From Asticcacaulis taihuensis (GTDB lineage Bacteria > Pseudomonadota > Alphaproteobacteria > Caulobacterales > Caulobacteraceae), in assembly GCF_900100255.1 (NCBI RefSeq), contig NZ_FMTS01000009.1:1-64000 (forward strand): DNA of 64,000 nt, read 5' to 3'. The position numbers were made by a program, and so were the translations under genes. Each line of letters opens with the position of its first letter. Positions within the stretch are counted from its first letter, which is position 1. This document shows, one piece after another, positions 37,349 through 62,612 of the stretch. The notes beneath the pieces were generated by a model, which was given only the letters and a program-made list of their open reading frames with translations, made no database searches and was not told where the DNA came from.

Positions 37349-37394
37349 ATAATAGCCTTGGTGTTTTAAATTCAACAATAAAATCTAATTTTAT
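37349..37394 (-). promoter_or_regulatory. TonB receptor promoter with AAAA-N5-TTTT inverted repeat
   Basis: On the minus strand: palindrome ATAAAATTAGATTTTAT (37378-37394), then TTGTTG (37373-37378), 18 bases, TATTAT (37349-37354). The arrangement AAAATT-NN-ATTTTATTG is shared with the GH5 promoter at 62593-62609. A regulator bound here would touch RNA polymerase at the -35 box. Confidence 0.5.
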
Positions 37395-37449
37395 ATAAGA
37401 AATGTCATGATTGTTGCGCCTTTGACACAAGGCGCTGGCTTCATAAATT

Positions 37450-37587
37450 TCGAAAAAAAGCCCCTCGCGCTGCGGAGCGAGGGAGTCGGGGAGGAAGCAC
37501 AATCGGTTGGGACGATTTGCGCCTTATTCACAAGCTTGCTCGAAACGCGCCGCAGCAACCTGACAGGACTTCAGGCACTAAGCTTAT
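37450..37587 (-). ncRNA. Candidate small RNA ending in an intrinsic terminator
   Basis: No protein gene is supported here, yet the minus strand carries a textbook terminator: stem CCCTCGC/GCGAGGG (37477-37483 with 37462-37468) followed after GC by seven T (37453-37459). About 110 bases upstream is TTGATA-16-TATTAT (37594-37621), predicting a transcript of about 130-140 bases. It contains CTTCCTCCCC (near 37488-37497), an anti-Shine-Dalgarno-like stretch of the kind used by many alphaproteobacterial small RNAs. It ends before the TonB receptor promoter. Transcription itself is not shown. Confidence 0.4.
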
Positions 37588-37593
37588 TGTACG

Positions 37594-37633
37594 ATAATAC
37601 ACCCTCCACCAATTTTATCAAATATAATTTTAT
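37594..37633 (-). promoter_or_regulatory. Candidate small-RNA promoter with second copy of the AT-rich element
   Basis: On the minus strand TTGATA (37616-37621), 16 bases, TATTAT (37594-37599). The 17-mer ATAAAATTATATTTGAT (37617-37633) overlaps the -35 box and matches 15 of 17 bases of the element at the TonB receptor promoter (37378-37394). Confidence 0.4.
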
Positions 37634-38074
37634 ATTTTGCTTATGAAATGATCTTGGGTGCGGGAAATTAAGACGGAACCGATGACCAAAATCTATGTAA
37701 CTAATTTATTTTATTCATATTTATGCACAATACATGCAGAAGGAAAGACCGTCTCCATACATCGCCTGTAAAATACCCATGCCATAATTTTACCGCGAAA
37801 CACTTTCCAGTTGGCTCTTGCTCTAAAAAGTAAGGCATGGAATTCCCGACCGCTTACATCGATCATAGGCAGTGAAAATACCTTGCCCGATGAGCGATGC
37901 TTCAAGCCCCCTACCCCACCCTTTACGCCGGAAGATGCGCCAGTACGAAATGGCCGCGCAAATTTTTCTAATGAATTTTATTTTTATTGATGCGCATACG
38001 CCTTCACGTTACATAAAGCCAAGACCTACGGCCAGAGAAGATAACGGCCGGCCACTCATCATGCAGGTAGGAAT
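37634..38074. other. AT-rich non-coding region before the fucosidase genes
   Basis: Together with 37273-37633 this forms an 800-base gap of clearly lower GC than its neighbours. Short open frames (for example 37711-37905 and 37872-38078) show no convincing codon bias, ribosome site or family pattern. A possible promoter for the GH29 pair is TTGATG (37987-37992) preceded by ATTTTTA, a half-match to the shared element, with TACATA near 38010-38015. An inverted repeat GTAAAAT / ATTTTAC lies near 37767-37792. Confidence 0.4.
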
Positions 38075-39661
38075 ATGAATAAGATAAGCAAACGCAGCTT
38101 TCTGGGCGCCCCCCTCCTGGCGACGGTCGGCCTGGCAAGCGCTCCCCTGGCATTTGGCCAGGAAACCACAAAATCCGGCGCTGACGGCGACTGCAAACCC
38201 GCTGAAAAGCCCGCTGAGTATAGGCTGCCGATCGCTTCCGGGCCGTTCGCCCCGGATATGGCCTCACTGGAGCAATATCACGCGCCGGACTGGTTCCGCG
38301 ACGCCAAGTTCGGCATCTGGGCCCATTGGGGCCCACAGGCCGTACCGCGCGCCGGCGATTGGTATGCCCGGCAAATGTATATTCCGGGGCATCCGCATTA
38401 CGATCATCACCTTAAGACCTACGGCCACCCATCCGAGGTCGGCTACAAGGACATCATCCCCCTTTGGAAGGCGGAGAAATTCGACCCCGAAGCCCTGATG
38501 GATAAATACGTAGCGGCCGGCGCCAAATACTTCGTCAGCATGGGCGTCCACCACGACAATTTCGATCTGTGGAACTCGAAAACCCACCGCTGGAATGCCG
38601 CCGCCATGGGGCCGAAACGCGATATCGTCGGCGCCTGGAAGGCCGCAGCGAAAAAACGCGGCCTGCGCTTCGGTGTATCCGAGCATCTGGGCGCCAGCCA
38701 CAACTGGTTCTACCCCAGTCACATGTACGATCAGATGTGGCCGAAGCTGGGCGTCAACTATGACGGCGCCGATCCGCGATTCGCCGACCTTTATCACGAC
38801 AACAAGGATGAGCCCTATCGCAGTACCGAGACCTGGTACACGCGCGACCCTGCCTATCACCAGATATGGTTCGATCGCATCCGTGATCTGGTCGACAATT
38901 ATCAGCCCGATCTGCTCTATTCGGACGGCGGCCTGCCCTTCGGCATTGTCGGGCGCTCGCTCCTGTCGCACTTCTATAACAACGCCGCAGACAAGAATGG
39001 ACGGACACAGGCGGTATATAACTGCAAGGCATTCGGTTCGGGCGAATACAGCAGTAAGATGTGCGTCCAGGACGTCGAACGCGGCGTTCTTAAGGGCATC
39101 AATCCCCTGCCCTGGCAGACGGACACCTCGAACGGCGACTGGTTCTATAGCGACAACTATACCTACAAGACGGCGCCTGACGTCATCCACATGCTGGCCG
39201 ACATCGTCAGCAAGAACGGCAATCTGCTGCTCAACATCGTGCTCTACCCAGATGGCAGCCTGCCGCCCGAATCACAAAGCCTGCTCGATGAACTCGCGGC
39301 CTGGATGTCGGTCAACAGCGAGGCGATCCACGGCTCACGTCCGTGGAAAATCTATGGCGAGGGCCCGACCGAAACCACGGATGGCGCTTTCATGGAGAAC
39401 AATGTCTATACCGGCCAGGATATCCGCTTCACGACGAAGGGTGATACGCTCTACGCCATTACGCTTGGCGATCCGAGCGCGACATGCCGGATCGTCGCGC
39501 TCGGCCGCAAGGCGGGCCATCTCAGCCGACCGGTCCGGAAGGTGAAACTTCTCGGGCAAGCGAAACCTGTATCCTTCCAGCAAACCGACGAGGCTTTGGT
39601 TGTGGATATGCCTGCGAACCTGCCGACACGACACGGCAGTGTGCTGAAACTGAGCCTTTAA
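38075..39661 (+). CDS. GH29 alpha-L-fucosidase (first of tandem pair)
   Basis: 528 residues with a leader containing KRSFLGAPLLATVGLASAPLAFG (possibly Tat-like with KR). The family opening WFRDAKFGIWAHWGPQAVP, VHHDNFDLWNSK and the nucleophile Asp284 in DLLYSDGG identify GH29. It would remove alpha-L-fucose from side chains such as those of fucogalacto-xyloglucan. AGG precedes the ATG. It shares an operon with the second GH29 gene, 29 bases downstream, although the two proteins are clearly diverged, suggesting different linkage or acceptor preferences. Confidence 0.92.
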   Translation: MNKISKRSFLGAPLLATVGLASAPLAFGQETTKSGADGDCKPAEKPAEYRLPIASGPFAPDMASLEQYHAPDWFRDAKFGIWAHWGPQAVPRAGDWYARQMYIPGHPHYDHHLKTYGHPSEVGYKDIIPLWKAEKFDPEALMDKYVAAGAKYFVSMGVHHDNFDLWNSKTHRWNAAAMGPKRDIVGAWKAAAKKRGLRFGVSEHLGASHNWFYPSHMYDQMWPKLGVNYDGADPRFADLYHDNKDEPYRSTETWYTRDPAYHQIWFDRIRDLVDNYQPDLLYSDGGLPFGIVGRSLLSHFYNNAADKNGRTQAVYNCKAFGSGEYSSKMCVQDVERGVLKGINPLPWQTDTSNGDWFYSDNYTYKTAPDVIHMLADIVSKNGNLLLNIVLYPDGSLPPESQSLLDELAAWMSVNSEAIHGSRPWKIYGEGPTETTDGAFMENNVYTGQDIRFTTKGDTLYAITLGDPSATCRIVALGRKAGHLSRPVRKVKLLGQAKPVSFQQTDEALVVDMPANLPTRHGSVLKLSL

Positions 39662-39690
39662 CCGCGCGCCCTTTTTTTTCGGAGACACCC

Positions 39691-41016
39691 ATGTTTGACC
39701 GCCGAAGCCTGATCGCCGGGGCGCTGGCCCTGCCCTTCACCGCATCCGCGCTTATGGCCCAGACCGTAACGGACGAGCAGCGGTCCGCGCAAAAAACGGC
39801 CAATGCCGACCCGACCCTTGCGCCCGACCTATTGCTTCCGGAGCGCAAGATGGCCTGGTGGCGCGATGCCAAGTTCGGCGTTTTCGTCCATTGGGGCCTT
39901 TATGCCATTCCCGGCCGCGGCGAATGGTACATGTTCAACGAGAAGGTTGCGCCGGAGGACTACGCCAAGCTCGCGCAGGAATTTAATCCCCGCCACTATG
40001 ATCCGGATAGCTGGGCCCGGCTGGCAAAAGTCGGCGGCGCCCGCTACATGGTCATGACGGCGCGCCACCATGACGGTTTCGCGCTTTGGGACAGTCCGGC
40101 CAGTTACGGTCATTATGATTCCATGCACGCGGCCGCCCACCGCGACCTGATTGCGCCCTACGTGAAAGCGGTTCGGCATCAGGGACTGCGCGTCGGTCTC
40201 TATTACTCGCCGCTCGACTGGCGTTTCCCTGCCTATTTCCATCCCAAGGAAATGCCCGAAAACGCCGCCCTGTTCAAACAACAGACCTATGCCCAGGTCG
40301 AGGAACTGATGCGCAACTACGGCCATATCGACATTCTATGGTGGGATGGCGGCTGGCTGGCGCACACCGGCACGGACGCTGACGCCGCCTGGTTCTGGGA
40401 GCCGGACAAGCTGAACCGCATGGTGCGAAAATACCAACCAGATATCGTCATCAATCCGCGTTCCGGCTGGCAGGGCGATTTCGACATTTCCGAAGGGGCC
40501 AGCCCGATCACCGGCCCTATCCGCGCCCGCCCCTGGGAAAAAGCCTTTTCCATCAATAATGGCGCTTGGGGCTATACGCCCGAAGATAGCGTCATGACCA
40601 CGGATCAGCTCGTGCGCCTGCTCGTCGATGCCATTGTGCGCAATGGCAATGTGATTGCGAATCTTGGCCCGGATCGTGATGGTCTCATCCCACCCAAGCA
40701 GGCCGAGACACTGAACGGCGTGGGACTTTGGCTGAAACGGCATGGCCGCGCCGTTTACGGCACGCGACCAGGGCCATTCCAGCCCGTGGATGGTGTCTAT
40801 GGCGCCACCATGGCCGGCAAGAGCGTGTTCGTCCATATTGTCGGCTGGCCGCAGGACGAACTGGTGCTGCCCCCGCTGCCCAGCAAGATCGTCGATGTCC
40901 GTAACCTTTCGGGTGAAACGCTAAAGTGGTCCGCCACCAGCGACGGTCTTGCTCTGTCCGTACCGCCAGCCTCGCGCGGCCCGGCGGTCACGGTCATCGA
41001 ACTGCGGCTTGCCTGA
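39691..41016 (+). CDS. GH29 alpha-L-fucosidase (second of tandem pair)
   Basis: 441 residues from ATG 39691, chosen for the GGAG 7 bases upstream; a longer frame overlaps the previous gene. It has a twin-arginine leader (DRRSLIAGALALPF), the family opening WWRDAKFGVFVHWGLYAIPG, ARHHDGFALWDS and nucleophile Asp219 in ILWWDGGW. It is shorter than its neighbour because of a reduced C-terminal part. It probably removes alpha-L-fucose from plant glycans. The convergent GH2 gene ends 26 bases after it, with no terminator visible. Confidence 0.92.
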   Translation: MFDRRSLIAGALALPFTASALMAQTVTDEQRSAQKTANADPTLAPDLLLPERKMAWWRDAKFGVFVHWGLYAIPGRGEWYMFNEKVAPEDYAKLAQEFNPRHYDPDSWARLAKVGGARYMVMTARHHDGFALWDSPASYGHYDSMHAAAHRDLIAPYVKAVRHQGLRVGLYYSPLDWRFPAYFHPKEMPENAALFKQQTYAQVEELMRNYGHIDILWWDGGWLAHTGTDADAAWFWEPDKLNRMVRKYQPDIVINPRSGWQGDFDISEGASPITGPIRARPWEKAFSINNGAWGYTPEDSVMTTDQLVRLLVDAIVRNGNVIANLGPDRDGLIPPKQAETLNGVGLWLKRHGRAVYGTRPGPFQPVDGVYGATMAGKSVFVHIVGWPQDELVLPPLPSKIVDVRNLSGETLKWSATSDGLALSVPPASRGPAVTVIELRLA

Positions 41017-41042
41017 TCAACATAGTCCTTGAGGGCCGATGT

Positions 41043-43330: not shown

Positions 43331-43354
43331 TGTCAAATATAAATATTATTTTCA
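43331..43354 (-). promoter_or_regulatory. GH2 promoter -35 box with AT-rich element
   Basis: On the minus strand TGAAAATAATATTTATA (43338-43354) is followed directly by TTGACA (43331-43336). The layout AAAA-N5-TTTA then -35 is the same as at the TonB receptor, GH5 and GH74 promoters. Elsewhere in the 427-base gap 43116-43542, AATTGGTGA occurs at 43361-43369 and 43391-43399, exactly 30 bases apart, facing GH97. No gene is seen in this gap. Confidence 0.45.
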
Positions 43355-43542
43355 CAAGTGAATTGGTGAAACATTTGCTTCATGCTACAAAATTGGTGAT
43401 CGACCACGCCGTGTGTGGTAATTGTCAGTCAAATCGCCGAAGAGCGGGATAGCCGATCTGTTGCATCAGCCGCACCTGCGACAATAATAAACATTAGATT
43501 TCAGGCGGGTCGTATGCAAACGGCACACTACAGGACGGATTC

Positions 43543-45419: not shown

Positions 45420-45442
45420 TAAAATTTCACATTTAAATTTTA
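45420..45442. promoter_or_regulatory. AT-only palindrome between GH97 and GH39
   Basis: Perfect 8-bp arms TAAAATTT (45420-45427) / AAATTTTA (45435-45442) around CACATTT, 6 bases after the GH97 stop. It could be a regulator site for GH39 or a weak terminator for GH97. It resembles the AAAA/TTTT element, but the spacing is wider. Confidence 0.35.
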
Positions 45443-45531
45443 ACTTCACTTATAGTTTTTTCTTGACGGCAGGTGGCTTAATCGTTCTGATCAGGCAATC
45501 TACCCTTACGGCTTTAAAGACGAGCGTTTTC

Positions 45532-50702: not shown

Positions 50703-52952
50703 TTACTTTTGCGCCTGCTGCGCAGGATTCAGGTCCGAAGCCGGCTGCCCCAGGGCAACGCCGCGGCCGGATGTGGTGATATAGACCAGTCCAAACTGAC
50801 GGGGATCACCAATAACCTGGCCGCCCATGCCGCCGCCATACTGGTGCGCGTCGTCATTGATCCTGCCCCATGACGCGCCGGCATCATCAGAGCGGAATAT
50901 CCCCCAGACGCCCTTGTAACGCCCCCACATATATACCGCCGGATAGGTCTGACCGGGCGCGCTTTTGCCGAAGCCGACCGCCGAAGCCTCGGAAATATCG
51001 GGCAACTGCTTGAACGGCGATTTGGGATCTGGCGAATGGAACAGGCCCTGCGGCGTCGGCAGCCAGATATCGCGCAAGCGTCCAGGTGCGGCGCGCGGTT
51101 TGGGCGCAGGACGCCACGGATCGATCACCGGGAGTCCACTGGCGAAAACCTTGAAGCTGGCGCCGCCGTCAGCACTGACCAGCATGGCGCCCGCGCTGGC
51201 ATCATAGGCGTAGAAGACGCCCTCGGTCGAGCGGTCCGAAAAAACCGGGAAGGTCCGCCCCTTGACCTGCGGAAAGCCCTTGGAGGCCGTCCATGACTTG
51301 CCGCGATCCAGCGAATAATAGGCATCGCCTTTGCCGGTCACCCAGACCATCTGGCCGCCCTGCGCCGACACGGCGATGCGGCCCGGCGTATACCAGCCAT
51401 CGGCGTCGTGGCTGATGATAGGCGGTGACGACGGCATATCCGACCAGGTCTTGCCGTTGTCGAGCGAGATCAGCGCGTGGGTCTTGGCCGCATCGCCATC
51501 GGCAACACGCACCACCAGACCTGGATTCAGTTCAGCGAAATCGATCGAGCGATTCGTCCCGGCGGCGGGCTGAAAATAGCCGCCTTCGGCAGGCGGCGAG
51601 GCGCCAAAGTCAAGATAGCGGAAGCCGCCGACATCGCCGACCGCCGCGATCAGATGCGCGCCGGCGGTCGGGCTGATCAGATCCAGCGGCGCCGTTTCCT
51701 CCAGATTATCGACCGCAAAGCGCCACGCCACAGCCTTGCCGGAGTCGGCGTCGGTCAGGTTCTGCGTCATCCACAATCCATCGCCGGTTCCGTAAACCGC
51801 CTCATTCGCATCGAACGGATTGATCTCAATGTCGGACATCCAGTGCCCCATCGCCTCCTTGCCGTTGCGGCTGACCTCCATCCATGGAAAACCGTCGGCG
51901 CTGTGATGCGAGGCGGCGCCCAGATCGGTCCAGTGCGCGCCGCCGTCCGTGCTGCGATAGGCTGTGTCGCCGCCCCACCACCGGTCCAGAGTCGTGGTCA
52001 CCAGCGTACCCGGCGCGCTGCCCGCCGCGCTGATCCCGGCATAGCAGAAGCCTGGTCCGCCATTGCCGGGCTTTTGTGGCGTGATGTCGGTCCAGTTGCC
52101 GCTGGCCGTATCGAGGCGCCATACCGCGCCTTCCTTACAGTCATTTGGACCGGGCCGGTCGGCGAAGGCGATATAAAGGCGCTTGCCATCGCCATCGAAG
52201 GCGGCGTGATGCGCCATAAAGCCGGTCGGCGCGCCCTTGACGGCCTGCCATGAAGCCCCGCCGTCGTGGCTGACATAGAGGCCGGATTTCGCATTCACGC
52301 CCGCATAAAGGGTCGGCGTCGCAGCGCCATCCTGGCCCGACGCCGGATCGAACAGCACGAAGCTGATATATTTTTCCGGAAACGAAGACACATTGCTCCA
52401 GCTTTTGCCGCCGTCATCGCTTTTCAGCAGGCCGCTCGTCGTCGTGCCGAGGAACAGGATATCGCCCTTGTGCGGATCGACCTGCAAGCGCTCGCCGGTA
52501 TTGCGCCCATCCTCATTGCCGCCCAGCTTCACCGGCAGAGCGGTTTTCGCCCAGGTCTGACCCCGGTCGCTCGAACGCCAGACCGCGCCATTGCCCGCCC
52601 ACTGACCGGTATAAAGGCCAGTGGCGATATAGACCTTGTTCACGTCTTCAGGATCTAGCGCCAGACTGAAAACCCCCAGATCGTCGGCGCTGTTCATCCC
52701 GTCCAGCAGCGGAATCCATATCTGATCGGCGCCGTCCCAGCGATAGGCGCCACCAACATCGGTGCGGGCGTAAAGCAGCCCCTTCTGTTTCGGATGATAG
52801 ACGAAGCCATCGACAAACCCGCCGCCGCCCATAGGCGCGGTGGCCCAGACATAGGGCACGCTTTTAACTGTGGAGGTTTGCGCCAGGGCACCACCCGTCA
52901 TCAAAGCCATCAGAGCCGCACCCCAAAGGGCACTTAAGCCTATGCGTTTCAT
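50703..52952 (-). CDS. GH74 endo-xyloglucanase
   Basis: 749 residues from ATG 52950-52952 with GAGG upstream; the longer frame to 53024 is unlikely. A signal peptide ends at GGALAQT. The family opening GGGGFVDGFVYHPKQKGLLYARTDVGGAYRW contains catalytic Asp65, and the second catalytic Asp374 is in WMSDIEINPFDANEAVYGTGDG. At least eight Asp-box repeats (SSDRGQTW, SDDGGKSW, SHDGGASW, STDGGAHW, SLDNGKTW, SLDRGKSW and others) mark the twin seven-bladed propellers. It cuts the xyloglucan backbone. No carbohydrate-binding module is attached. It is the first gene of the GH74-GH2-esterase operon. Confidence 0.95.
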   Translation of the reverse strand: MKRIGLSALWGAALMALMTGGALAQTSTVKSVPYVWATAPMGGGGFVDGFVYHPKQKGLLYARTDVGGAYRWDGADQIWIPLLDGMNSADDLGVFSLALDPEDVNKVYIATGLYTGQWAGNGAVWRSSDRGQTWAKTALPVKLGGNEDGRNTGERLQVDPHKGDILFLGTTTSGLLKSDDGGKSWSNVSSFPEKYISFVLFDPASGQDGAATPTLYAGVNAKSGLYVSHDGGASWQAVKGAPTGFMAHHAAFDGDGKRLYIAFADRPGPNDCKEGAVWRLDTASGNWTDITPQKPGNGGPGFCYAGISAAGSAPGTLVTTTLDRWWGGDTAYRSTDGGAHWTDLGAASHHSADGFPWMEVSRNGKEAMGHWMSDIEINPFDANEAVYGTGDGLWMTQNLTDADSGKAVAWRFAVDNLEETAPLDLISPTAGAHLIAAVGDVGGFRYLDFGASPPAEGGYFQPAAGTNRSIDFAELNPGLVVRVADGDAAKTHALISLDNGKTWSDMPSSPPIISHDADGWYTPGRIAVSAQGGQMVWVTGKGDAYYSLDRGKSWTASKGFPQVKGRTFPVFSDRSTEGVFYAYDASAGAMLVSADGGASFKVFASGLPVIDPWRPAPKPRAAPGRLRDIWLPTPQGLFHSPDPKSPFKQLPDISEASAVGFGKSAPGQTYPAVYMWGRYKGVWGIFRSDDAGASWGRINDDAHQYGGGMGGQVIGDPRQFGLVYITTSGRGVALGQPASDLNPAQQAQK

Positions 52953-53093
52953 CGTCTGCCTCGCTGCCATTATTATTATAAAAGCCGGAAAAATTTTCGA
53001 TTGTGCCCGCCGCCTCTTTGACACACCTGCATCAGACGAGACGGTTTTGCCCTGCTCGAAACCCGCTTATATAATGATATTACATACAAATAG

Positions 53094-53119
53094 CTTCAAT
53101 TGTAAAACACATTTTTACA
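53094..53119 (-). promoter_or_regulatory. GH74 promoter with inverted repeat TGTAAAA-N5-TTTTACA
   Basis: Perfect 7-bp arms TGTAAAA (53101-53107) / TTTTACA (53113-53119). Next to it on the minus strand is TTGAAG (53094-53099), with CATTAT 17 bases on. TACATACAAA occurs at 53081-53090 and 53116-53125. The repeat lies between divergent GH74 and IclR genes and is the best local candidate for an IclR site; it has the same AAAA-N5-TTTT core as other locus promoters. Confidence 0.5.
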
Positions 53120-53368: not shown

Positions 53369-54172
53369 ATGGCGAAGCTAAATCTATCTGTTCAGGACGA
53401 CACGGAGGAGAGCGAACTGAAGTATCGTGCCCCGGCCCTGGAAAAGGGGCTGGATATCGTCGAGCTTCTTGCCGCCTCCCCCAAACCGATGCCGCCCCGG
53501 CAAATTTCAGAGCAGTTGAATCGCTCCGTCAGCGAACTGTTCCGGATGATCGCGGTACTCGAACACCGCGGTTACGTTGCCATGGCCGAAAACCAGAGCG
53601 GCTACGAACTGACGAACAAATTGTTTTCACTCGGCATGTCCCGGGGCGTCAGCAAGAATCTGCTCGACTACGCCATTCCCGCGATCCGGGCGCTAAGCGA
53701 TGAGATTTTGCAGGCGACGCACATCGTCGTCGCCTCCGATGACCAGGTTGTCGTCATCGGGCAGATGGATGCGCCGGCCGCTCCCAGCTTTCATGTACGT
53801 GTCGGCTATCGCCAGGAGATTGTCGAGGCGACCGCAGGCACCGTACTGTACGCCTTCCAGAATCCGACGAGCAAGGCGGCCTGGCGAAAGGCCCTGCAGC
53901 CCACCGTCTCCGAAAGTGAATGGGCCCGTTTTGAACAGCACGCCATACGCGCCAGGGAAAACGGCTTTCTCATCGCCCAAAGCACCTATTCGGAGAGCAT
54001 TACCGATATCGCCTGTCCGGTCTTCAATGATCGCGGTCTGGTTGCCGCCGTCACCATACCGTACATCCGCAGCAAGCTGAGCATCAGCGTCGAAGCCTGC
54101 GCGAACGCCCTGGTTGACACCTGCACCTCCCTGTCGAACGCATTGGGCGCGACACCGCGGGAAACCTTCTAG
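53369..54172 (+). CDS. IclR-family transcriptional regulator of the locus
   Basis: 267 residues, GAGG before ATG. The N-terminal winged helix is at about 20-85 (APALEKGLDIVELLAASPKPMPPRQISEQL, ELFRMIAVLEHRGYV), followed by the IclR effector domain (PAIRALSDEILQATHIVVAS, FHVRVGYRQEIVEATAGTVLYAF, ITDIACPVFNDRGLVAAV). It is divergent from GH74 and probably controls the hemicellulose genes in response to a released sugar; the ligand is unknown. Its TAG stop and the TAG of the convergent kinase lie within one CTAG at 54169-54172. Confidence 0.9.
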   Translation: MAKLNLSVQDDTEESELKYRAPALEKGLDIVELLAASPKPMPPRQISEQLNRSVSELFRMIAVLEHRGYVAMAENQSGYELTNKLFSLGMSRGVSKNLLDYAIPAIRALSDEILQATHIVVASDDQVVVIGQMDAPAAPSFHVRVGYRQEIVEATAGTVLYAFQNPTSKAAWRKALQPTVSESEWARFEQHAIRARENGFLIAQSTYSESITDIACPVFNDRGLVAAVTIPYIRSKLSISVEACANALVDTCTSLSNALGATPRETF

Positions 54173-55383
54173 CTATCCGCCATACTCTTACTGCCGGGAA
54201 GCCTGAACAAAAATTCCGAAGACCAGGGCTCTGAGTGTTCCGTCAACCGCAGGTCACCACCATGCGCCAGCGCGATCTGGCGGGCAAGGGACAGACCTAT
54301 ACCCGCGCCTTCCGGTTTGGTCGTTATGAAGCCATGGAAAATGCGGTCCCGCATCGCCGGCTCTATCCCGGTGCCGTTATCCGCAATCACAATACCCGTA
54401 TCATTATCCACACGCCGCAGAGCAATGTTCACACGCCGCGGCCCGCTATTATCGCGTGTAGCCTCGGCCGCATTGGTCAGGACGTTGATCACCGCCTGCG
54501 CCATCAGGGCCTCGTCCATTTCCAGGGACGGCGCCCCCTCGTCCATATGCAACGTAACCGTTACGCCTTTAGCCACGGCGCTCTGCTCAAACACACGCAC
54601 GACATCCGCGACAAACCCTGAAACATCAACGCGACGCAACTCCGGCTTCGGCAAACGCGCCAGCGAGCGGTATCCCTCAACGAACCGCTTGAGCCCCCTG
54701 GCGCGTCGCTCCAGCAAGGCCAGCGCTTCCCTGGCGGACTGTAGGTCTTCGGGCGCCTCGCCCTCAAGGTAGTGCTGTGCCGTCTCGGCGAGAGAGGCGA
54801 CCGGCGTCAGTGAATTCATGATTTCGTGACTGATGACCCTCAAGGTATCCCCCAGGGCCGTGGCCTCCGCTATGCGCATCTCGGCCTGAATATCCGTCAG
54901 GCTGATAAACCGTTCCTTGCGTTTCTCAAAAGACAGTTCGCTGCCCCCCAGGGCATAGATGCTGTCAAAAAGCCGGATCGAGGACCTCGCCCCTCTTTCC
55001 GCACGCATCACCGCCGTCACCAGCGCCGGCGGAGGATCGCTTATAAAATCATCCACCCGAAAAAGTCGGCGTGCGGCCAGGTTCAAAGCATAATAGCCCT
55101 CACCTTCCACGGACCTTAACAATGGCACCGGCACCTGATCCAGAAGGGCCGAAAGGGTTTGCGGTGGCGGTTCGGGACGACTGCGATCCTCGGCGGGCAC
55201 CTTGTCCTCGCGCCTACCGATCTCATGGGCGGCCAAGAGCATAACTGTGCTGACTGCCAGCCCCAGAAGGCACAAGGCCATATTGGCCCACATCTGATCA
55301 CGCGCCGACGTGAATGCCAGGATCGCGGTCACCGCAACGCCTGCCACGCACAGTAATCTGAGGATCACGCCCCTAAAGACCAT
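54169..55383 (-). CDS. Membrane histidine kinase
   Basis: 404 residues. Two membrane segments lie at about 5-23 and 33-52, with almost no periplasmic loop, then a PAS-like linker, phosphoacceptor His186 in ISHEIMNSLTPVASLAE, an N box (VLTNAAEAT), G1 (DNGTGI) and G2 (GAGIGLSLARQIA). The HEIMNSL motif is of the type found in NtrY-like kinases. With so little periplasmic sequence it may sense through the membrane or a partner such as the ABC permease. Its start overlaps the response-regulator stop by 11 bases. Confidence 0.9.
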   Translation of the reverse strand: MVFRGVILRLLCVAGVAVTAILAFTSARDQMWANMALCLLGLAVSTVMLLAAHEIGRREDKVPAEDRSRPEPPPQTLSALLDQVPVPLLRSVEGEGYYALNLAARRLFRVDDFISDPPPALVTAVMRAERGARSSIRLFDSIYALGGSELSFEKRKERFISLTDIQAEMRIAEATALGDTLRVISHEIMNSLTPVASLAETAQHYLEGEAPEDLQSAREALALLERRARGLKRFVEGYRSLARLPKPELRRVDVSGFVADVVRVFEQSAVAKGVTVTLHMDEGAPSLEMDEALMAQAVINVLTNAAEATRDNSGPRRVNIALRRVDNDTGIVIADNGTGIEPAMRDRIFHGFITTKPEGAGIGLSLARQIALAHGGDLRLTEHSEPWSSEFLFRLPGSKSMADS

Positions 55384-56614
55384 GGCGGCTCATTCGGCGG
55401 TAAAGGGTCTGTCGTGTCACGCCCAGTTCGGCAGCCGCCTTGGAGACATTGAAATTGTTGCGCTTAAGGGCGGACTCGACAACGAATTTTTCCGTGGCTT
55501 CCAGACTTGAGGCCGTGGTTCGAGGATCAATGTCCTGCACTGACGGTATGTGCAGATCGTTCGGCCCCAGCACCGGCCCGTCCGTTCCGACAACCGCACG
55601 CTCCATGACCTGGCGCAGAGCGTGCAGATTGTCGCTCCACACAGCCGCCTTGAGATGCGCGATAGCTTCCGGCGTCAGGGCGCGGTGAGGCAGATTTTGC
55701 CTGTAGGCGCACAGATTGGCGAAATGCCCGGCCAGTATACCGATATCGCCAGTGCGTTCCGCCAGGGTAGGCAGATTGATTTCAAGGGTACTGAGCGCAT
55801 AAACGAGACCACGCGGCAGTTCCATGTCGCCGCGCCCTCTCACTGAGGTAGCGACCACACGCACATTACGGCCCTCAAACCCTGGCAACCAGTCCAGCAA
55901 GGACTGATGAAAGCCGGCATCGAGTCTTTCAATCGCTTCAATAACCAGAGTAGCGTCCCGCAACTCTTCGGGCGCAATCGTCGAGATCGATGACGCGTCA
56001 ACCACTTTGAGATGCGCCCGCCCGGAGCGGTTATGCAGGGCGCGGGCGATATGCGATTTTCCTGTTCCTGGTGCCCCCGACAATAAAACCGGGACCGTCA
56101 GCGGCGCGTAGCGGTCCACCAGCGCCTTGATACGTGTCATGGCCTCGGTGTCACCGATAATGAATTTCGCGTCGGAAACCGGTGACGGCTCTGAAATCGG
56201 ACCGATGTCTGCACTCGGGTTTCGCTGCCCCTTCCCAAGTCCCTCTTCGATTGCGGCGATGAATTTTTCGTTGCTCCACGGCTTCATGATGAAATTCGTG
56301 GCGCCGGCCCTCAGAGCGCGAACAGCCACGGTCAATCCGCTGTGACCTGTGACGACCAGCACGGGTACGCCCGGCGCATAGCGACGCAACTCCTGCAAAC
56401 TGGCAAGGCCTTCCTCCCCCGAGGTCTGTGCCTGGGAAAAATTGAGGTCGAGCAGGATCAAATCGACGGCCTGTGCAGACAACAACGCATAGGCTTGTCC
56501 CGGCGAACCAGCCGTGAGGAGGGTATAGCCTGCCCTGTTAAGCAACAACTCCGCCGTCTTGAGGACATCGGCATCGTCATCGATAAACAGCAGGGTTTTA
56601 TGCGTTTGCGGCAT
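55373..56614 (-). CDS. NtrC-like response regulator lacking the GAFTGA region
   Basis: 413 residues. Receiver domain with acidic cluster IDDD (11-14), phosphoacceptor Asp56 (LILLDLNFS) and Lys111; AAA+-like domain with Walker A GAPGTGKS at 180-187; C-terminal Fis-type helix-turn-helix (NVSKAAAELGVTRQTLYRRMSRHGL). Between Walker A and the LPTLAERTGDI segment the usual GAFTGA loop and GTLFLDEI Walker B are missing, replaced by a short EELRDATLVIEAIERLDA stretch. It should therefore bind DNA after phosphorylation but not activate sigma-54 RNA polymerase. It pairs with the overlapping kinase gene and is divergent from the IclR-like/ABC genes. Confidence 0.88.
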   Translation of the reverse strand: MPQTHKTLLFIDDDADVLKTAELLLNRAGYTLLTAGSPGQAYALLSAQAVDLILLDLNFSQAQTSGEEGLASLQELRRYAPGVPVLVVTGHSGLTVAVRALRAGATNFIMKPWSNEKFIAAIEEGLGKGQRNPSADIGPISEPSPVSDAKFIIGDTEAMTRIKALVDRYAPLTVPVLLSGAPGTGKSHIARALHNRSGRAHLKVVDASSISTIAPEELRDATLVIEAIERLDAGFHQSLLDWLPGFEGRNVRVVATSVRGRGDMELPRGLVYALSTLEINLPTLAERTGDIGILAGHFANLCAYRQNLPHRALTPEAIAHLKAAVWSDNLHALRQVMERAVVGTDGPVLGPNDLHIPSVQDIDPRTTASSLEATEKFVVESALKRNNFNVSKAAAELGVTRQTLYRRMSRHGL

Positions 56615-56762
56615 GTACGATTCCGGACAATTCGGACACTTGGTGAGTCAAAATTCACTCAAATTGGGAAAAAGTCAAATAAAATTGACGCCTTAGCTTA
56701 TTTTTGAAAATCCGCTAAACTGTAAAAAAGAACAAAGATACGGACAACGCGGAGGAAGCCAC
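56615..56762. promoter_or_regulatory. Divergent control region between response regulator and ABC genes
   Basis: Contains CGGACA twice (in TTCCGGACAATTCGGACACT, 56621-56640) and the inverted repeat TGAGT (56644-56648) / ACTCA (56657-56661). Either could be the site of the response regulator. No -24/-12 sigma-54 signature (GG-N10-GC) is evident, consistent with the regulator lacking GAFTGA. AT-rich sequence follows up to the GGAGG site of the next gene. Confidence 0.35.
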
Positions 56763-57218
56763 ATGATGATGACCCAAAGAAGTGCTTTTGTCTTGGATGC
56801 GCCATGCGAGGACATGACGGAGTACGCAATGCCGGTTATGGATCAGCTCGCGGAGGCCCTGCAACAGTCCTGCCAGCTTGTCGTGCGTCAGGAAGGCAGC
56901 TTCCATGTCAGGCTTCAGAGCGTTCCGTCGGCCGCTTTCTATGTCAACATGCCAACAGGGATGGCTTACCAGGTTCAGGATGCCGGAAACAATATCTCTG
57001 ATCAGCCATATAAGGCCGATCAGCAGCCGAACCCCAACCTGCCTGACGTCACAGATGTCTACGCCCCGGTATTCCAGGGCACGAGCCTGGTCGCTCTTCT
57101 TGTTTCGTCCTGTGTCAAGCGCCGTAACGGGCCGTCTCTGGAAGAGTGCCGGGCACAGGTCGCAGCGGCCGCAAACCGCCTGAGCCAATCCTTCATTGCA
57201 CAGGCCCTGGTGGCTTAA
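56763..57218 (+). CDS. HTH-less, shortened IclR effector-domain-like protein
   Basis: 151 residues; GGAGGAAG 8 bases before ATG gives a clear start. It aligns by eye with the effector domain of the IclR protein at 53369: EYAMPVMDQLAEALQQSCQL with DYAIPAIRALSDEILQATHI, and DVTDVYAPVFQGTSLVALLV with SITDIACPVFNDRGLVAAVT. There is no DNA-binding domain, and the middle of the effector domain (the GTVLYAF..ENGFL part, about 50 residues) is replaced by a short Gln/Pro/Asn-rich stretch. No signal peptide. It lies before the ABC transporter genes and may modulate the IclR regulator by mixed dimers, or sense a ligand by itself. Confidence 0.6.
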   Translation: MMMTQRSAFVLDAPCEDMTEYAMPVMDQLAEALQQSCQLVVRQEGSFHVRLQSVPSAAFYVNMPTGMAYQVQDAGNNISDQPYKADQQPNPNLPDVTDVYAPVFQGTSLVALLVSSCVKRRNGPSLEECRAQVAAAANRLSQSFIAQALVA

Positions 57219-57312: not shown

Positions 57313-58002
57313 ATGGCGCCCCTCATAAGCTTGAGGGGCGTCAATTTCTCCTATCGAGCCGCCGGCCGTCGCGTCGACGCTCTGCGTGACATCACGCTCG
57401 ACGTCGAACGCGGTGAGTTCGTTTCCATTTGCGGTCCCTCCGGTTGTGGCAAATCCACCTTGCTTAACATCATGGGCACTCTGGATCGTCCGGAGACAGG
57501 CAGCGTATTGTTTCACGGCCAGAACGTCGCCGATGCCGCGCCGGGCGCACTGGCCCGGTTGCGCGCCTTTGACATCGGTTTCGTTTTTCAGAGCTTCAAC
57601 CTGATCGATAGTCTCAGCGTTTACGAAAACATCAAACTGGCCCTGCTTTATCGCCACAAGCCGGATTTTCATATCGATGAACGGGTCCAGGAGGTTATGG
57701 ATCTTGTCGGCATCGCCCACAGGGCCAATCATCTGCCAAACCAGCTTTCCGGCGGCCAGCAGCAGCGCTGCGCCATTGCGCGCGCCATCGTTGGCAAGCC
57801 GTCGATCATTCTTGCCGACGAACCGACAGGAAACCTGGATTCAGAAAATGCCGCGCAGATTTTCAACATCCTGAAAGCCGTCAATGCCGAAGGTTGCACG
57901 CTCGTCATTGTGACCCACGCGCCGGCACAGGCCGATCAGGCCGAACGCATTGTTGAAATGCTGGATGGCAAGATTCAGTTTACCCGCCGGCGCCTGTCAT
58001 GA
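57313..58002 (+). CDS. ABC transporter ATP-binding protein, MacB/LolD type
   Basis: 229 residues from ATG 57313; a TTG at 57283 adding 10 residues is possible, and neither has a strong ribosome site. Walker A GPSGCGKST at 41-49, Q-loop VFQSFN, signature LSGGQQQR at 145-152 and Walker B IILADEPTGNLDS are intact. This type works with FtsX-like permeases in mechanotransmission, lipoprotein release or peptide and macrolide export. It overlaps the permease gene by 4 bases (ATGA), so the two form one transporter. Confidence 0.92.
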   Translation: MAPLISLRGVNFSYRAAGRRVDALRDITLDVERGEFVSICGPSGCGKSTLLNIMGTLDRPETGSVLFHGQNVADAAPGALARLRAFDIGFVFQSFNLIDSLSVYENIKLALLYRHKPDFHIDERVQEVMDLVGIAHRANHLPNQLSGGQQQRCAIARAIVGKPSIILADEPTGNLDSENAAQIFNILKAVNAEGCTLVIVTHAPAQADQAERIVEMLDGKIQFTRRRLS

Positions 58003-60383
58003 TGCGCCTGGCGCAAGGTTTCGGACAGCCCGGCCGGATACTGAGCCGGTACTGGGGCATGAGCCTGCTGAAAGTCCTCAGCCTGGCGATTGGTTTTGCC
58101 GCTGCCTTCATCGTTGCACTGGAAGTCAGAAGCGAACTCGGCTTTGACCGTTTCATACCTGATGCCGACAACATCTATCTCCTCAGAACCCTTTACGCAC
58201 CCGATGGCCCCGAACAGGTCAGCAGCGATCAGTCACCCGCCGGCATGGCCAAATGGCTGGCAAAGGAGAGCCCCTCTATTGATGCCGCGTCCCGTCTGGT
58301 CACGGCCGAGTGGCCGATGCGAACGCCGCGAATTACGACGCAGCAGCCGTTCTATTGGGCGGACTCAAACTTTTTCGACCTGGTGCCCCTCAAAGCCGTG
58401 TCCGGTGATCTGAGCCACGCCCTGCAGAAGCCCGACAGCATGGTATTGACGCAGAAAATGGCGCGGGCTTTTTTCGGACGCGAAGACGTTGTCGGACAGA
58501 CCGTCATGTTGAGCGACTGGTTGCCCGTTACCGTCACGGCCGTGCTCGCTGATTTTCCCGACAATACAAGCTTCGGAAGGCAGATATTTATATCCAGCGA
58601 AGCGGGTTATAGTATGCTTTCCATCCTGGACGCCCATCCGGAATGGAACTGGACCTCCTGCCTGACCTTCGTGCGCCTGAAACCCGGCGCATCGGCTCCA
58701 GCGGCGTCACTCAGCGCACTGGCAACCCGTCACGGCGTTTCGTCACGCGAGCATCCCATGACGTTTGAAATCGTCGCGTTGCCCAGGGTTCACTTCCTGC
58801 CGAGGGCCGATGCCCCGATCGCGCCGCGCGGACACCCCGATACGATTATAGCCATGATCGCCGTGGCTATTCTCATTGTTGTGCTGGCCGTGGTCAATTT
58901 CAGTGAACTGATGGCGATACAGATCGATGAACGGCGCCACGAAATGGCAATCCGCAAAACCCTGGGGGCGAAGACGCACGAGATATGTCTTCAGGTCCTG
59001 GTTGAAGCCGCTATCCTGGTCTCTCTGGCGTTGGTACTGGCGGCCGCAGCGGTTGAACGTTTCCTGCCCGTACTCGACCCGATCATGCGCATAGGCCAGT
59101 CCCCCTGGTCCGAAGCCTGGTTTTTATGGGGAAGCTTGTCGGTGGGTTTCATAATCGCCATGTTGGGAGCCTTTTATCCCGCCCTGGCCCTGGCGTCCGT
59201 TCATCCCCGCCTCAGCCGCAACCGCCCCCCCTCGTCGAGCGGCCCCTCATTGTCGCGTTCATTGTGGACAGTGGCCCGGTTTTCTCTGCTGATTTTACTG
59301 CTGATGACCTCTTACACGGTTTATCAGCAGTGGCGGTTCGCAACGAGCGATGCACTGAACCACGATGCCAACCGCATCCTGCTGCTCAACACCGCCTCAG
59401 ACGTACCGGCGGATGTAACTCTAAGGAAACCTTTGCTGGCATTGAAAGGCGTTCAAAAAGCCACCTACTCACGAAGCCTTCCCGAACAGAGCAACATCTG
59501 GCCGGACTGGATACGCAGAGCGGATGGACAGATTATCCAGGCGCAGCGGCAATCCGTAGATCCACATTTCTTTGAGTTTTACGATGTGCGGAGTCTTGCC
59601 GGCCAGACCTTTTCAAACACCTACGCGGAACTGACGCCGGCGCGGGACGTGGTGATAAACCGGGCCGCCCTGCAGGCCCTTGGCTTCAAGGCGCCACAGG
59701 ACGCCGTTGGCCGCGACATAAATCTGGCGCGTGATACCGGTGACATTGTCTCACATGTCATAGGCGTGGTTGACAATATACGCCTGGCCGATATCCGCGA
59801 ACCCGCGGCGCCTATGATTTTCGACAATCAGTCGGCCTTCTTTAATCGCCTGAGCGTGAAACTGGCTCCTGGTTCGGAAACAGAAACAATAGGTCAAATC
59901 GACCGGATCTGGAGACAGGCCTATCCAAGAGCCGGTCCCCTGGAAAAGCAGTTCTATTCGGAATATGTCCGCGCCGAATACGCTGACATGTACCAGCAAT
60001 GGTATGTCTTCGGACTATTGTCGGTTATCGGCGTTACCGTTTGCATATTCGGCCTGATCGGTCTGTCCATCCACATTTACAGGACGGATCGCAAGGAAAT
60101 CGCCATACGAAACGCGCTCGGCGCCAGCAAGGCTGATTTGATCGCGCTCCGGCTGAAGCCCTATCTGCGGCCGCTTCTGATCGCCAATCTGATCGCGGGG
60201 CCGCTCGCTTGGGGTATCGCCGTTACCTGGCTGCATACCTTCGCGCTGCATGTGAACCCCAGTTGGCTGGCCTTCCTTCTGGCGAGCGCCTCTACATTTC
60301 TTATCGCCTTCGGCACCCTGGCGATCCATACGGCGCTGGCGCAACCCGCCCGGTCAAGCAGCCCATTAAGAAATCTGGAATGA
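57999..60383 (+). CDS. MacB/FtsX-type ABC transporter permease with duplicated halves
   Basis: 794 residues with about eight membrane segments (near 24-42, 283-305, 335-355, 377-398, 423-440, 668-690, 720-742, 752-775) and two large extracytoplasmic regions between TM1 and TM2 and between TM5 and TM6. This is the layout of two fused MacB_PCD-FtsX units. The segments IDERRHEMAIRKTLGAKTHEI and TDRKEIAIRNALGASKADLI are the repeated FtsX cytoplasmic motif. No substrate can be read from the sequence; export or mechanosignalling with the nearby kinase is inference. No membrane-fusion (HlyD-like) protein gene is adjacent. Confidence 0.9.
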   Translation: MMRLAQGFGQPGRILSRYWGMSLLKVLSLAIGFAAAFIVALEVRSELGFDRFIPDADNIYLLRTLYAPDGPEQVSSDQSPAGMAKWLAKESPSIDAASRLVTAEWPMRTPRITTQQPFYWADSNFFDLVPLKAVSGDLSHALQKPDSMVLTQKMARAFFGREDVVGQTVMLSDWLPVTVTAVLADFPDNTSFGRQIFISSEAGYSMLSILDAHPEWNWTSCLTFVRLKPGASAPAASLSALATRHGVSSREHPMTFEIVALPRVHFLPRADAPIAPRGHPDTIIAMIAVAILIVVLAVVNFSELMAIQIDERRHEMAIRKTLGAKTHEICLQVLVEAAILVSLALVLAAAAVERFLPVLDPIMRIGQSPWSEAWFLWGSLSVGFIIAMLGAFYPALALASVHPRLSRNRPPSSSGPSLSRSLWTVARFSLLILLLMTSYTVYQQWRFATSDALNHDANRILLLNTASDVPADVTLRKPLLALKGVQKATYSRSLPEQSNIWPDWIRRADGQIIQAQRQSVDPHFFEFYDVRSLAGQTFSNTYAELTPARDVVINRAALQALGFKAPQDAVGRDINLARDTGDIVSHVIGVVDNIRLADIREPAAPMIFDNQSAFFNRLSVKLAPGSETETIGQIDRIWRQAYPRAGPLEKQFYSEYVRAEYADMYQQWYVFGLLSVIGVTVCIFGLIGLSIHIYRTDRKEIAIRNALGASKADLIALRLKPYLRPLLIANLIAGPLAWGIAVTWLHTFALHVNPSWLAFLLASASTFLIAFGTLAIHTALAQPARSSSPLRNLE

Positions 60384-60457
60384 CCGCATTTATATTTGAA
60401 TTATAACTTTATATATAATACAAATAAGCCAAATATATTTAACTAAAGGGGAAAAAG
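60384..60457 (+). promoter_or_regulatory. GH42 promoter region with half-match to the shared AT-rich element
   Basis: ATTTATATTTGA (60389-60400) is identical over 12 bases to the end of the element plus -35 at the GH2 promoter, with TTGAAT as the likely -35 (60396-60401); TATAAT occurs at 60414-60419 but at short spacing. The upstream AAAA arm is missing. AAAGGGGA precedes the GH42 ATG. Confidence 0.35.
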
Positions 60458-62509
60458 ATGAAATTCATGAACAGCCTGATGACGTCCTTACTGATCGCCA
60501 CAGCCATCCCCTGCACGGTTCAAGCGAAAGCGGCGGCAGAGCATCCCGGCTGGCCCGGTTCTGGACAATTGTTCGTCGGCACCTGCTATCAGCCTGTCGA
60601 CCGGAGTCCTGAGCAAATTCACCGTGATATTGCGCTCATGAAGAAGGCCGGTTTCAATATTGTGCGCATGGGCGACCTGTCGTGGGATTATTTTGAACCC
60701 GAAGAAGGCGTCTACGATTTCAAGGCGTTTGACGCCGTTCTGGCCGAGATGAAGGCCAATGGCATCCGCGTTATCCTCGATATCCCCGGCCTGCCCGCGC
60801 CCTTATGGCTGCATCGAAAATATCCAGGGGTCGATCTTGTTGCGCAGAATGGCACACGGCTCAACCCTGCCGAACGCTATATGGACAATATCAGCGATCC
60901 CGACTACCGGCGCCTTGTGACCGATTTCGCCGATACGCTGACAAAACGATACGGCGCCGATCCCAACGTTATAGCCATCGGTTTCGATAACGAGATCGGC
61001 AACGGCTTTATGTCGTATTCGGAGGCGGACAGGCAGCGTTTCATCGGCTGGCTCAAGGCGCGTTACGGAGACCTGCCCAGTCTGAATAAGGCCTGGGCCA
61101 CACAGCGCTGGTCGAGACGCATCAGTGCCTGGGATGAGGTCCAGCTACCCTATGGCGATGGTCCGGGGCCGGTAGAGCGCTATCTGGATCTGCATCGTTA
61201 CTGGTCGGATGTCACTATTGGCGCCCTCAAGGATCTGGAAGCTGTTCGCCAGCGTAACGCACCGGAAAAGCCGGCGATCTCAAACCTGTGGGACAGTGCC
61301 GATCGCAAGGGATTCGACTATCTCTCGACCTACCGCCAATATGTCAATTATGGCGCCTACGGCTATTACAATGGCGACCCCATCAGCGGCGGCTTTGAGA
61401 CATCGATGATGCGCGGGGCCTTGACCACCCCCGTCTGGTTCAACGAGTTTCAGGCCGGCGGCGGTGGTTTTTACGGCAGCAAGGGCCGGTCGCGCATGTG
61501 GGCCTATTTTGGCCTCCTCAATGGCGGGCAAGCCGTCCTCGCCTGGACGTTCAACAGTCATCTTGGCGGGGAGGAACAGGCCCTCTTCGGACTGATCGAT
61601 CACGACGACACGCCTTCCTGGAAGCTGGACGAATTCGGTGCTATCGCCCAGGAATTCCGCACAATGCAACCCCTTGGCTTCCCTCGACAGGTCTCGCCTG
61701 AAGTGGCTATCGACTATTCGTTTGACTCGCGCGTCGCTTCCAATCCGAACGGTCCCAGCAATACGGTGCGCGCCTACTACACCACGCCCTACCTGACGCA
61801 GAAGCACAACGCCTTCGCGCCGCTTTACAACGACAATATCGACGTGGCGGTGATCAATGTCGCGTACGAGGATTTGAGCCGATACAAGCTTGTGGTCGTC
61901 TCCGGTGAATACCTGATGGACCAAAAGGCGACCGACGCGATCCGCACCTATGTCGCCAATGGCGGCACGGTCGTTATGACGGCCTTATCCGACAAGGCCG
62001 ACGGAACCGCCCAATGGCACAACACACCGTTGCCGGGCAGGCTTTCCGATGTCTTCGGTCTGAAAACAAATGCGTTTTATCGCACCGATACGCCGCTGAC
62101 CGGCCGGATCGGCGACACGGATTTCAGCACCACAATCAATTTCTACGAAGTGCTCGAACCGTCAACCGCGAAAGTCATGGCCCGGTTTTCAAATGTTGAG
62201 GGATCGCCGCCCGTCATAACCGTGAATACCTATGGCAAGGGCCGCGCGATCTATGTGGCCACGCCCGCTCAGACGTCCATCATGGCGCCGCTATACGAAA
62301 GCCTGTATGCCGACCTGAAAATCGCCGTTGGGCCTAAAACGCCAGAGGGGGTCTATGCCCGCGAGGTGAATGGCCGAACCCTGTATGTAAACACAACCAC
62401 CACCGATAAGGTCGTGCCGATTTCCGGCCGCAAAACAGGGCTCATAACGCATATGACCTGGAACACGGAAATGCATCTGGGACCTTATGGTGTTGACCTG
62501 GTGCAATAG
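60458..62509 (+). CDS. GH42-type beta-galactosidase
   Basis: 683 residues with a signal peptide (cleavage near VQAKAAAE). The barrel opens LFVGTCYQPVDRSPEQIHRDIALMKKAGFNIVRMGD, with acid/base Glu179 in IGFDNEIGNGF and nucleophile Glu330 in VWFNEFQAGG. The trimerisation-like domain and C-terminal beta domain follow (SGEYLMDQKATDAIRTYVANGGTVV, NTYGKGRAIYVATP). Secreted GH42 enzymes act on beta-galactosides such as xyloglucan or galactan side chains; it is the third beta-galactosidase-type enzyme of the locus. It follows the ABC permease after 74 bases but has its own promoter-like sequence. Confidence 0.9.
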   Translation: MKFMNSLMTSLLIATAIPCTVQAKAAAEHPGWPGSGQLFVGTCYQPVDRSPEQIHRDIALMKKAGFNIVRMGDLSWDYFEPEEGVYDFKAFDAVLAEMKANGIRVILDIPGLPAPLWLHRKYPGVDLVAQNGTRLNPAERYMDNISDPDYRRLVTDFADTLTKRYGADPNVIAIGFDNEIGNGFMSYSEADRQRFIGWLKARYGDLPSLNKAWATQRWSRRISAWDEVQLPYGDGPGPVERYLDLHRYWSDVTIGALKDLEAVRQRNAPEKPAISNLWDSADRKGFDYLSTYRQYVNYGAYGYYNGDPISGGFETSMMRGALTTPVWFNEFQAGGGGFYGSKGRSRMWAYFGLLNGGQAVLAWTFNSHLGGEEQALFGLIDHDDTPSWKLDEFGAIAQEFRTMQPLGFPRQVSPEVAIDYSFDSRVASNPNGPSNTVRAYYTTPYLTQKHNAFAPLYNDNIDVAVINVAYEDLSRYKLVVVSGEYLMDQKATDAIRTYVANGGTVVMTALSDKADGTAQWHNTPLPGRLSDVFGLKTNAFYRTDTPLTGRIGDTDFSTTINFYEVLEPSTAKVMARFSNVEGSPPVITVNTYGKGRAIYVATPAQTSIMAPLYESLYADLKIAVGPKTPEGVYAREVNGRTLYVNTTTTDKVVPISGRKTGLITHMTWNTEMHLGPYGVDLVQ

Positions 62510-62590
62510 GCAAATCTCTGTTTCGATTAAAAAGTACGACAAAACGGCATCACTTTTCATAGAAGTGGCGCGACGGCAAATATTTTATTT

Positions 62591-62612
62591 GCAAAATTGT
62601 ATTTTATTGACA
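62591..62612 (+). promoter_or_regulatory. GH5 promoter -35 box with AAAA-N5-TTTT element
   Basis: GCAAAATTGTATTTTAT (62591-62607) runs directly into TTGACA (62607-62612). The core AAAATT-NN-ATTTTATTG equals that at the TonB receptor promoter on the other strand 25 kb away. No convincing -10 hexamer is seen at 17 bases. Confidence 0.5.

Follow-up and report, generated by a model that had tools for sequence, protein, structure and literature searches.

A 19-bp palindrome ahead of the xyloglucan-locus promoters of Asticcacaulis taihuensis, probable operator of an adjacent IclR-family regulator

The window analysed here is a stretch of 64,000 nucleotides from Asticcacaulis taihuensis (contig NZ_FMTS01000009.1, 90,201 bp; genome, 3.97 Mb), and its part from 23 to 64 kb is a xyloglucan locus that reaches from a gene of glycoside hydrolase (GH) family 31 through to a GH5 gene. 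Eight copies of one element, one of them only a half-site, lie ahead of the hydrolase and TonB-dependent receptor units of this locus. Sequence comparison confirms that the element exists; it takes the form of a 19-bp palindrome, TATAAAAT-N3-ATTTTATA, with its centre usually 11 bp upstream of a -35-like TTGA. We propose, with a probability of roughly 0.78, that the palindrome is the operator of the adjacent IclR-family regulator (53369-54172). A dimer of IclR would bind the palindrome immediately upstream of the -35 box, centred at about -47 from the predicted transcription starts, and in response to a signal derived from xyloglucan it would switch on (less likely, repress) eight promoters: those of the TonB-receptor unit, the GH29 pair, GH2, GH39, GH74-GH2-esterase, GH42, GH5 and a small RNA. 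A centre near -47, just upstream of the -35 box, is the usual place for an activator that touches the polymerase, and the operator is probably, by a modest balance, an activator site; that IclR acts here as a repressor is less likely. A xyloglucan sugar may be the ligand, as the enzymes of the locus suggest.

The palindrome and its distance from the -35 box

The copies in the window are the following:

37377..37395, centre 37386, minus strand: copy of the TonB-dependent receptor, -35-like TTGAAT 11 bp from the centre
37616..37640, minus strand: distal copy, accompanied by TTGATA and TATTAT boxes; the proposed small-RNA promoter
37970..37988, centre 37979, plus strand: copy of the first GH29 fucosidase (GH29a), TTGA at offset 8
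43338..43356, centre 43347, minus strand: GH2 copy, in an intergenic region common to the divergent GH97 gene
45432..45450, centre 45441, no strand assigned: GH39 copy, without TTGA at 11 bp
53101..53119, centre 53110, minus strand: copy of the GH74-GH2-esterase unit
60387..60401, plus strand: right half-site CATTTATATTTGAAT of GH42, consensus left arm absent
62590..62612, centre 62599, plus strand: GH5 copy, TTGACA at offset 8

An earlier note made from the sequence alone, here called the original prediction, had described an AAAA-N5-TTTT element at four promoters. The four quoted strings are present, at the TonB receptor (37373-37392, minus), GH5 (62593-62612, plus), GH2 (43331-43352, minus) and GH74 (53094-53115, minus), and so are the half-matches reported ahead of GH42 (60387-60401, plus) and the first GH29 (37972-37990, plus). 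Its fifth copy exists as well, at 37620-37636 and thus a few bases off the noted 37617-37633, and the copy ahead of GH39 is an addition. The geometry had to be redrawn: the element had been seen as fused to the -35 box and at the same distance from it throughout, but the spacings as drawn are 0, 0, 3 and 3 nt, and orthologous promoters show N3 between ATTTTA and TTGA. At the TonB promoter, these orthologs point to TTGAAT, which starts 3 nt later, as the conserved -35-like box. If this box is used, the spacing of 11 bp from centre to TTGA becomes constant at the TonB, small-RNA, GH2 and GH74 promoters; it is 8 bp at GH5 and GH29a.

The consensus of a merged set of 41 centres is TATAAAAT-N3-ATTTTATA, then TTTGA. 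When the palindrome core was scored by itself, 45 centres of at least 13 bits were found in eight loci, and TTGA follows at offset 11 in 22 of them (23 instances, with about 0.7 expected per offset). Four more distant genomes supply 13 of these 23 instances. Offset 8 occurs at three centres (GH29a twice, GH5 once), and TTGA was found at none of the offsets 9, 10 and 12-19. Without TTGA, the core alone lacks specificity, since five core matches occur in 560 kb of background from the own genome; in G000 (G numbers denote genomes) there are nine in the 26-kb locus, two of them overlapping registers of one site.

How far the motif exceeds chance depends on how it is counted. The exact AAAA-N5-TTTT string is weak by itself: it occurs three times in the window against 0.5 expected, and 2 of 100 shuffles reach three. 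In the 3.97-Mb genome the exact string AAAATNNNATTTTA has only two palindromic places, the TonB-receptor and GH5 promoters. If up to two mismatches are allowed in the motif with its downstream TTGA, four of nine strand places in the genome (three palindromes) fall into the locus, against about 0.06 expected by length. Overall, this pattern count shows no excess (9 in the own genome versus 10 for the reversed pattern) and was dropped; matrix and location tests were used for this reason. A weight matrix trained without the window genome and its two nearest relatives found 12 strand matches of at least 18 bits on the 90-kb contig, whereas 20 local shuffles of this contig gave a mean of 0. Held-out matrices gave, as strand matches at 18 bits with the mean of 20 local shuffles in brackets, 12 (0) for G000, 10 (0) for G107, 13 (0.1) for G104, 3 (0.05) for G110, 14 (0) for G102, 7 (0) for G111, 4 (0.1) for G089 and 7 (0) for the second G110 locus. 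The tested genome and its near relatives were left out of training; one palindrome may be counted once per strand, and the seeds of the site set came from the window genome and Asticcacaulis sp. AC466 (G104). Moreover, the best score of the first matrix in the 560 kb of background was 16.9, compared with 25-33 for five locus sites, which were training sites.

Counterparts of the single copies are found in the relatives. The TonB-receptor copy is present in G107, G104, G110, G102 and G111, and with a weak left arm in G089. The GH29 copy recurs at 38060 in G104 and 28421 in G107, the GH2 copy at 43422 and 31645, respectively, and the GH74 copy at 38484 in G107; both genomes also have copies ahead of GH39 and the same half-site ahead of GH42. 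The GH2 gene itself was not found in the G107 locus, though the operator copy is there. Several genes of this close relative's locus, including IclR, are split into two pieces, which may be draft errors. In AC466, the stretch read of the main locus holds no GH74. A GH74-like gene (31% identical) on another contig of this genome has three moderate motif matches (17-18 bits) upstream, as expected for one regulon.

A further palindrome was observed at some of these promoters:

37414..37430, no strand assigned: TTGTGTC-AAA-GGCGCAA, 36 bp upstream of the centre of the TonB-receptor operator

At the TonB promoters and at GH5 of G102, the general form TTGYGNC-N3-GNCRCAA precedes the operator by 35-37 bp, measured between the two centres; the coordinates in relatives are 27856-27872 (G107), 18550-18566 and 32821-32837 (G102) and 34630-34646 (G111), and the pattern has matches in 22 of the 25 genomes of the genus that were compared. 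Beside the GH5 copy lies a second palindrome, GCAAATATTTTATTTGC, at 62576-62592.

The link to the IclR gene and other candidate binders

53369..54172, plus strand: IclR-family regulator, proposed operator binder (HTH_IclR and IclR_C)
54169..56614, minus strand: histidine kinase and NtrC-like response regulator, the rival binder

The original prediction had one regulator control the set, IclR in the first place and the NtrC-like regulator in the second, and the distribution in 25 Asticcacaulis genomes agrees with this ranking. The protein of 267 amino acids has both IclR domains above the curated cut-offs and the length of the family (about 250 residues). An IclR ortholog (E <= 1e-85) is present in seven of the 25 genomes, the window's own included, among them AC466 and an Asticcacaulis metagenome-assembled genome (G110). 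All ten places with exact AAAATNNNATTTTANNNTTGA lie within these seven genomes, with at least one in each, and the remaining 18 have none. With one mismatch permitted, the matches number 22, versus two for the reversed pattern; four of the matches lie outside the IclR genomes, in three of the 18 (G099, G014 and G109). The comparison of orthologous loci that had been suggested points the same way: when a matrix was built from eight sites, taken from the window genome and AC466, its best match fell upstream of IclR, between it and a TonB-receptor gene, in each of G110, G102, G111 (where the receptor is 36% identical) and G089.

Two genomes have the motif next to a different IclR as well, in another glycan locus (G100:C30 and G111:C2). 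Both places were found through the RNA model search described below, and because of their close similarity they are treated as a single case. This second IclR is 96% identical between the two genomes and 30% identical to that of the window; the stretch that we take to be the recognition helix is similar in both proteins. Divergently to the gene lie TGTGGAAATG(A/G)ATTTTATATTTGAT and a unit that ends in a terminator. The half-site ATTTTATATTTGA occurs at 23 places in 299 genomes of the family versus one for the control, and nine of these exceed 20 bits with the full matrix, all in IclR-bearing loci; seven of the nine had been training sites, the G100 and G111:C2 sites had not.

That the operator belongs instead to the NtrC-like response regulator (55373-56614) is improbable. 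In its favour, its gene adjoins IclR in each of the seven loci, it lacks the GAFTGA loop that marks sigma-54 regulators and could thus act at sigma-70 promoters, and in G110:C13 the motif occurs with a regulator of the IclR-locus clade and an IclR that is only 28% identical. One -24/-12 pattern had no match in 53.0-62.7 kb (plus) or 33.0-62.7 kb (minus). The regulator is, however, present (E <= 1e-70) in 15 genomes, eight of which lack this IclR, and in all eight no matrix score exceeds 15.8 within 10-20 kb around its gene. These loci keep the kinase and, depending on the genome, ABC transporter genes, GH39, GH42, GH5, GH2, GH31-like and TonB-receptor genes; the receptor is 62-79% identical in three of them and 34% in a fourth. 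Moreover, at G100:C30 and G111:C2 the motif adjoins IclR, and the five reading frames scanned at each include no response regulator. Finally, the regulator has a distinct candidate site, unlike the AT palindrome: at least one exact TGTCCG/CGGACA stands upstream of it in eight of eight copies of the IclR-locus clade and in nine of nine from the second clade (expectation about 0.08 per 150 bp; the string was picked after some regions had been read, and some start positions are approximate). TGTCCG is often repeated and was seen at 56615-56650 of the window and in 16 related loci of both types; it is likely an autoregulatory site. Still less probable is that the motif is merely an AT-rich UP element touched by the alpha subunit of RNA polymerase at strong promoters: UP elements are A-tract/T-tract sequences at about -38 to -59, the motif lies at about -38 to -57 with an A-tract before a T-tract, and half ATTTTATATTTGA is enriched in the genus (17 places in 25 genomes, 0 for the reversed control), but UP elements need neither a dyad nor a regulator, and the exact full palindromes with TTGA are confined to IclR-bearing genomes and scarce elsewhere in the own genome, which speaks against this as the sole role.

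Several observations weigh against assigning the operator to IclR. (i) The NtrC-like regulators of the IclR-bearing loci form one clade (100/100), so that their type co-segregates with IclR, and since the tree separates the two locus types, co-occurrence alone cannot tell the two candidates apart. (ii) The IclR gene's own promoter in the window is without the motif: the nearest copy centre is 259 bp upstream of its start, at the divergent GH74, and the conserved sequence ahead of IclR looks different. (iii) An IclR of about 50% identity, presumably with a near-identical recognition helix, occurs in genomes without the exact motif. (iv) G109, without the ortholog, has one 24-bit match ahead of another TonB-receptor-like gene, and among the loci without IclR the best match, and the only one above 15 bits, is that of 15.8 in G101, at a distance of about 200 bp ahead of the TonB receptor. 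(v) The other 14 half ATTTTATATTTGA places score below 15 bits, with no IclR found within 1.5 kb; six of them share CGTATATTTTATATTTGAC, five plainly orthologous, with full-matrix scores of at most 9.4. (vi) Covariation between the arms was not significant (p 0.29, 39 sites) and was dropped as proof of dimer binding. (vii) The spacing and held-out results are partly circular, as the matrix with which training sites were initially collected contained TTGA and had its seeds in the window genome and AC466.

The CGTATATTTTATATTTGAC promoter is conserved at L156:9394 (G029) and similar in G094, G106, G085, G108 and G099, and a hairpin comes next in most copies. No IclR was found in 15-20 kb stretches from five of the six genomes, and the annotated copy (G029) precedes a DUF5695/GH127 operon; this is perhaps another leader or small RNA without IclR. 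The G109 match (G109:C2:174028, L096:10045) has a tryptophan-halogenase-like gene together with the TonB-receptor-like gene. Small loci around 22 other IclR homologs, mostly 38-51% identical, were rejected as carriers of the same operator: two matches exceed 15 bits (L023, 24.2; L024, 16.2), and reading 14 of the 22 by eye revealed no common operator.

A predicted small RNA ahead of the TonB receptor

37453..37591, minus strand: predicted small RNA of about 135 nt with an intrinsic terminator (hairpin and T7; terminator dG -14.5)

The role of the fifth copy in the original prediction needs correction, as our model has it head a new feature, the predicted terminator-ended RNA that sits between the distal and the proximal operator of the TonB receptor. 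The layout, a distal copy followed by a GC-rich hairpin and a T-run, is found in all seven IclR genomes and in the second G110 locus; the left arm of the distal copy is poor in both G110 loci. The nine units (two in G102) end 126-179 nt after TTGA; with G100 and G111:C2, the total is eleven. Five units can be aligned, with TTCGAGCRAGCTT invariant. In this alignment 88.5% of cells pair, and 11 pairs are changed on both sides versus 3.9 in shuffled and 2-7 in slid controls, figures from five sequences that are biased towards a structure derived from these same sequences. Promoter-like boxes, an intrinsic terminator and, in these five sequences, a predicted conserved structure are as expected of a small RNA. 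No Rfam family matches it, and no reading frame was seen by eye to be conserved in the five translated units.

The RNA model R1 had 32 matches in 19 of the 25 genomes at E <= 0.05. These include the five training units, the two in the motif module (G111:C2 and G100:C30), and matches in G094, G029, G014 and G085 that were rejected: they look like unrelated hairpins, and no matrix score exceeds 9.3 in the 7-11 kb around them. Most of the 21 weak matches beyond these eleven may be due to chance. Genome-wide, R1 missed the G089, G111:C3, G102b and G110:C13 units; a smaller search placed G089 (E 0.044) and G111:C3 (E 2.1) exactly at the predicted positions. It is position and layout that suggest the kinship of these four units. 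The string GTTTCGAGC is common to the GH74 leader (53054-53062) and the predicted RNA (37538-37546) and has few occurrences in the 90-kb contig.

The distal unit could instead act as an attenuator, a conditional leader of the TonB-receptor mRNA. It immediately precedes the receptor on the same strand and has the terminator at its end, but in each of the seven loci the receptor is separated from the terminator by a second operator copy (a weak one in G089), and the next genes of the G100 and G111:C2 units are on the opposite strand, with no TonB receptor in the same direction; we regard an attenuator as the less likely reading. It is tempting to speculate, with less than even confidence, that the small RNA is part of a recurring module of glycan loci in Asticcacaulis, an IclR gene with an operator promoter that drives a fast-evolving, terminator-ended RNA. 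The RNA would be induced together with the sugar locus and would tune outer-membrane transport, acting on this TonB receptor or on others. Two IclR proteins of only 30% identity accompany such a module; if the idea is correct, the sugar regulon would have an RNA arm of its own.

The locus, its relatives and its significance

Besides the regulators, the genes relevant to the operator copies are:

33847..37272, minus strand: TonB-dependent receptor
50703..53024, minus strand: GH74 xyloglucanase (17 matching sequences of solved structures, xyloglucanase by name in many cases; best E 2.6e-161)
62680..63945, plus strand: GH5 of cellulase/xyloglucanase type

The receptor would head a same-strand gene unit that reaches GH31 at 23035, and GH31 matches alpha-xylosidase structures. 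The locus further holds GH27, GH62, an acetylesterase-type protein, a tryptophan-halogenase-like protein, two GH29, two GH2, GH97, GH39, ABC transporter genes and GH42. A 151-amino-acid protein without Pfam match (56763-57218) is encoded between the regulator and the ABC genes; its place is taken by a divergent IclR in G089 and G110:C13.

The palindromes compiled for the IclR family are TGGAAATNATTTCCA for IclR, RWWGAAACGNCGTTTCAKKA for KdgR and TGRAACAN1-2TGTTYCA for group 2 (Suvorova and Gelfand 2021, PMC8222616). The motif resembles the A/T-rich operators of E. coli IclR and gammaproteobacterial KdgR in its short-arm RAAA...TTTY palindrome; compared with group 2, the architecture is alike, but the motif has A/T where the published consensus has G/C. 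The regulator gene beside its targets and, as for KdgR, the carbohydrate function are shared as well. According to the same source, the targets of an IclR protein are as a rule its own gene and one or two neighbouring operons, and tandem sites with 18-22 nt between centres occur in 94 of 181 ortholog groups. In contrast, the system described here has a fixed phasing to TTGA, about eight promoters, no motif ahead of the regulator gene itself in the window, and single sites at most copies, with the GH5 pair 15 bp apart. It is ordinary in kind, an IclR regulon, and unusual in extent and in the predicted co-regulated RNA.

In gene content, the locus is like those for xyloglucan in Xanthomonas (GH74, GH31, TonB-dependent transporters and an esterase; PMC8245568) and Thermotoga maritima (GH74; PMC3750489), and it differs from both in the proposed IclR operators and the predicted RNA: the term IclR is absent from the main text of the former, and the latter, which holds both terms, IclR and xyloglucan, assigns the cluster to the predicted regulators GloR, of the LacI family, and CelR. 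No IclR-controlled xyloglucan locus was among the matches listed in the open-licence literature. The predicted RNA is like ChvR (PMC6237742), CrfA and SisA-D (PMC12559287) of Caulobacter in ending with a terminator and in its association with TonB receptors, and its CUUCCUCCCC stretch resembles the UUUCCUCCCU core of the alphaR8 RNAs; unlike the Caulobacter RNAs, it lies inside a sugar locus under a local operator and lacks an Rfam match.

Our analysis provides a testable set of regulator, operator and promoters for a xyloglucan locus in Asticcacaulis. The related loci without IclR offer a natural comparison, as they combine similar enzymes with different control. Should the predicted RNA prove real, there would be an alphaproteobacterial polysaccharide regulon that includes its own small RNA, and the control of TonB receptors by RNA could be studied with a known sugar inducer.

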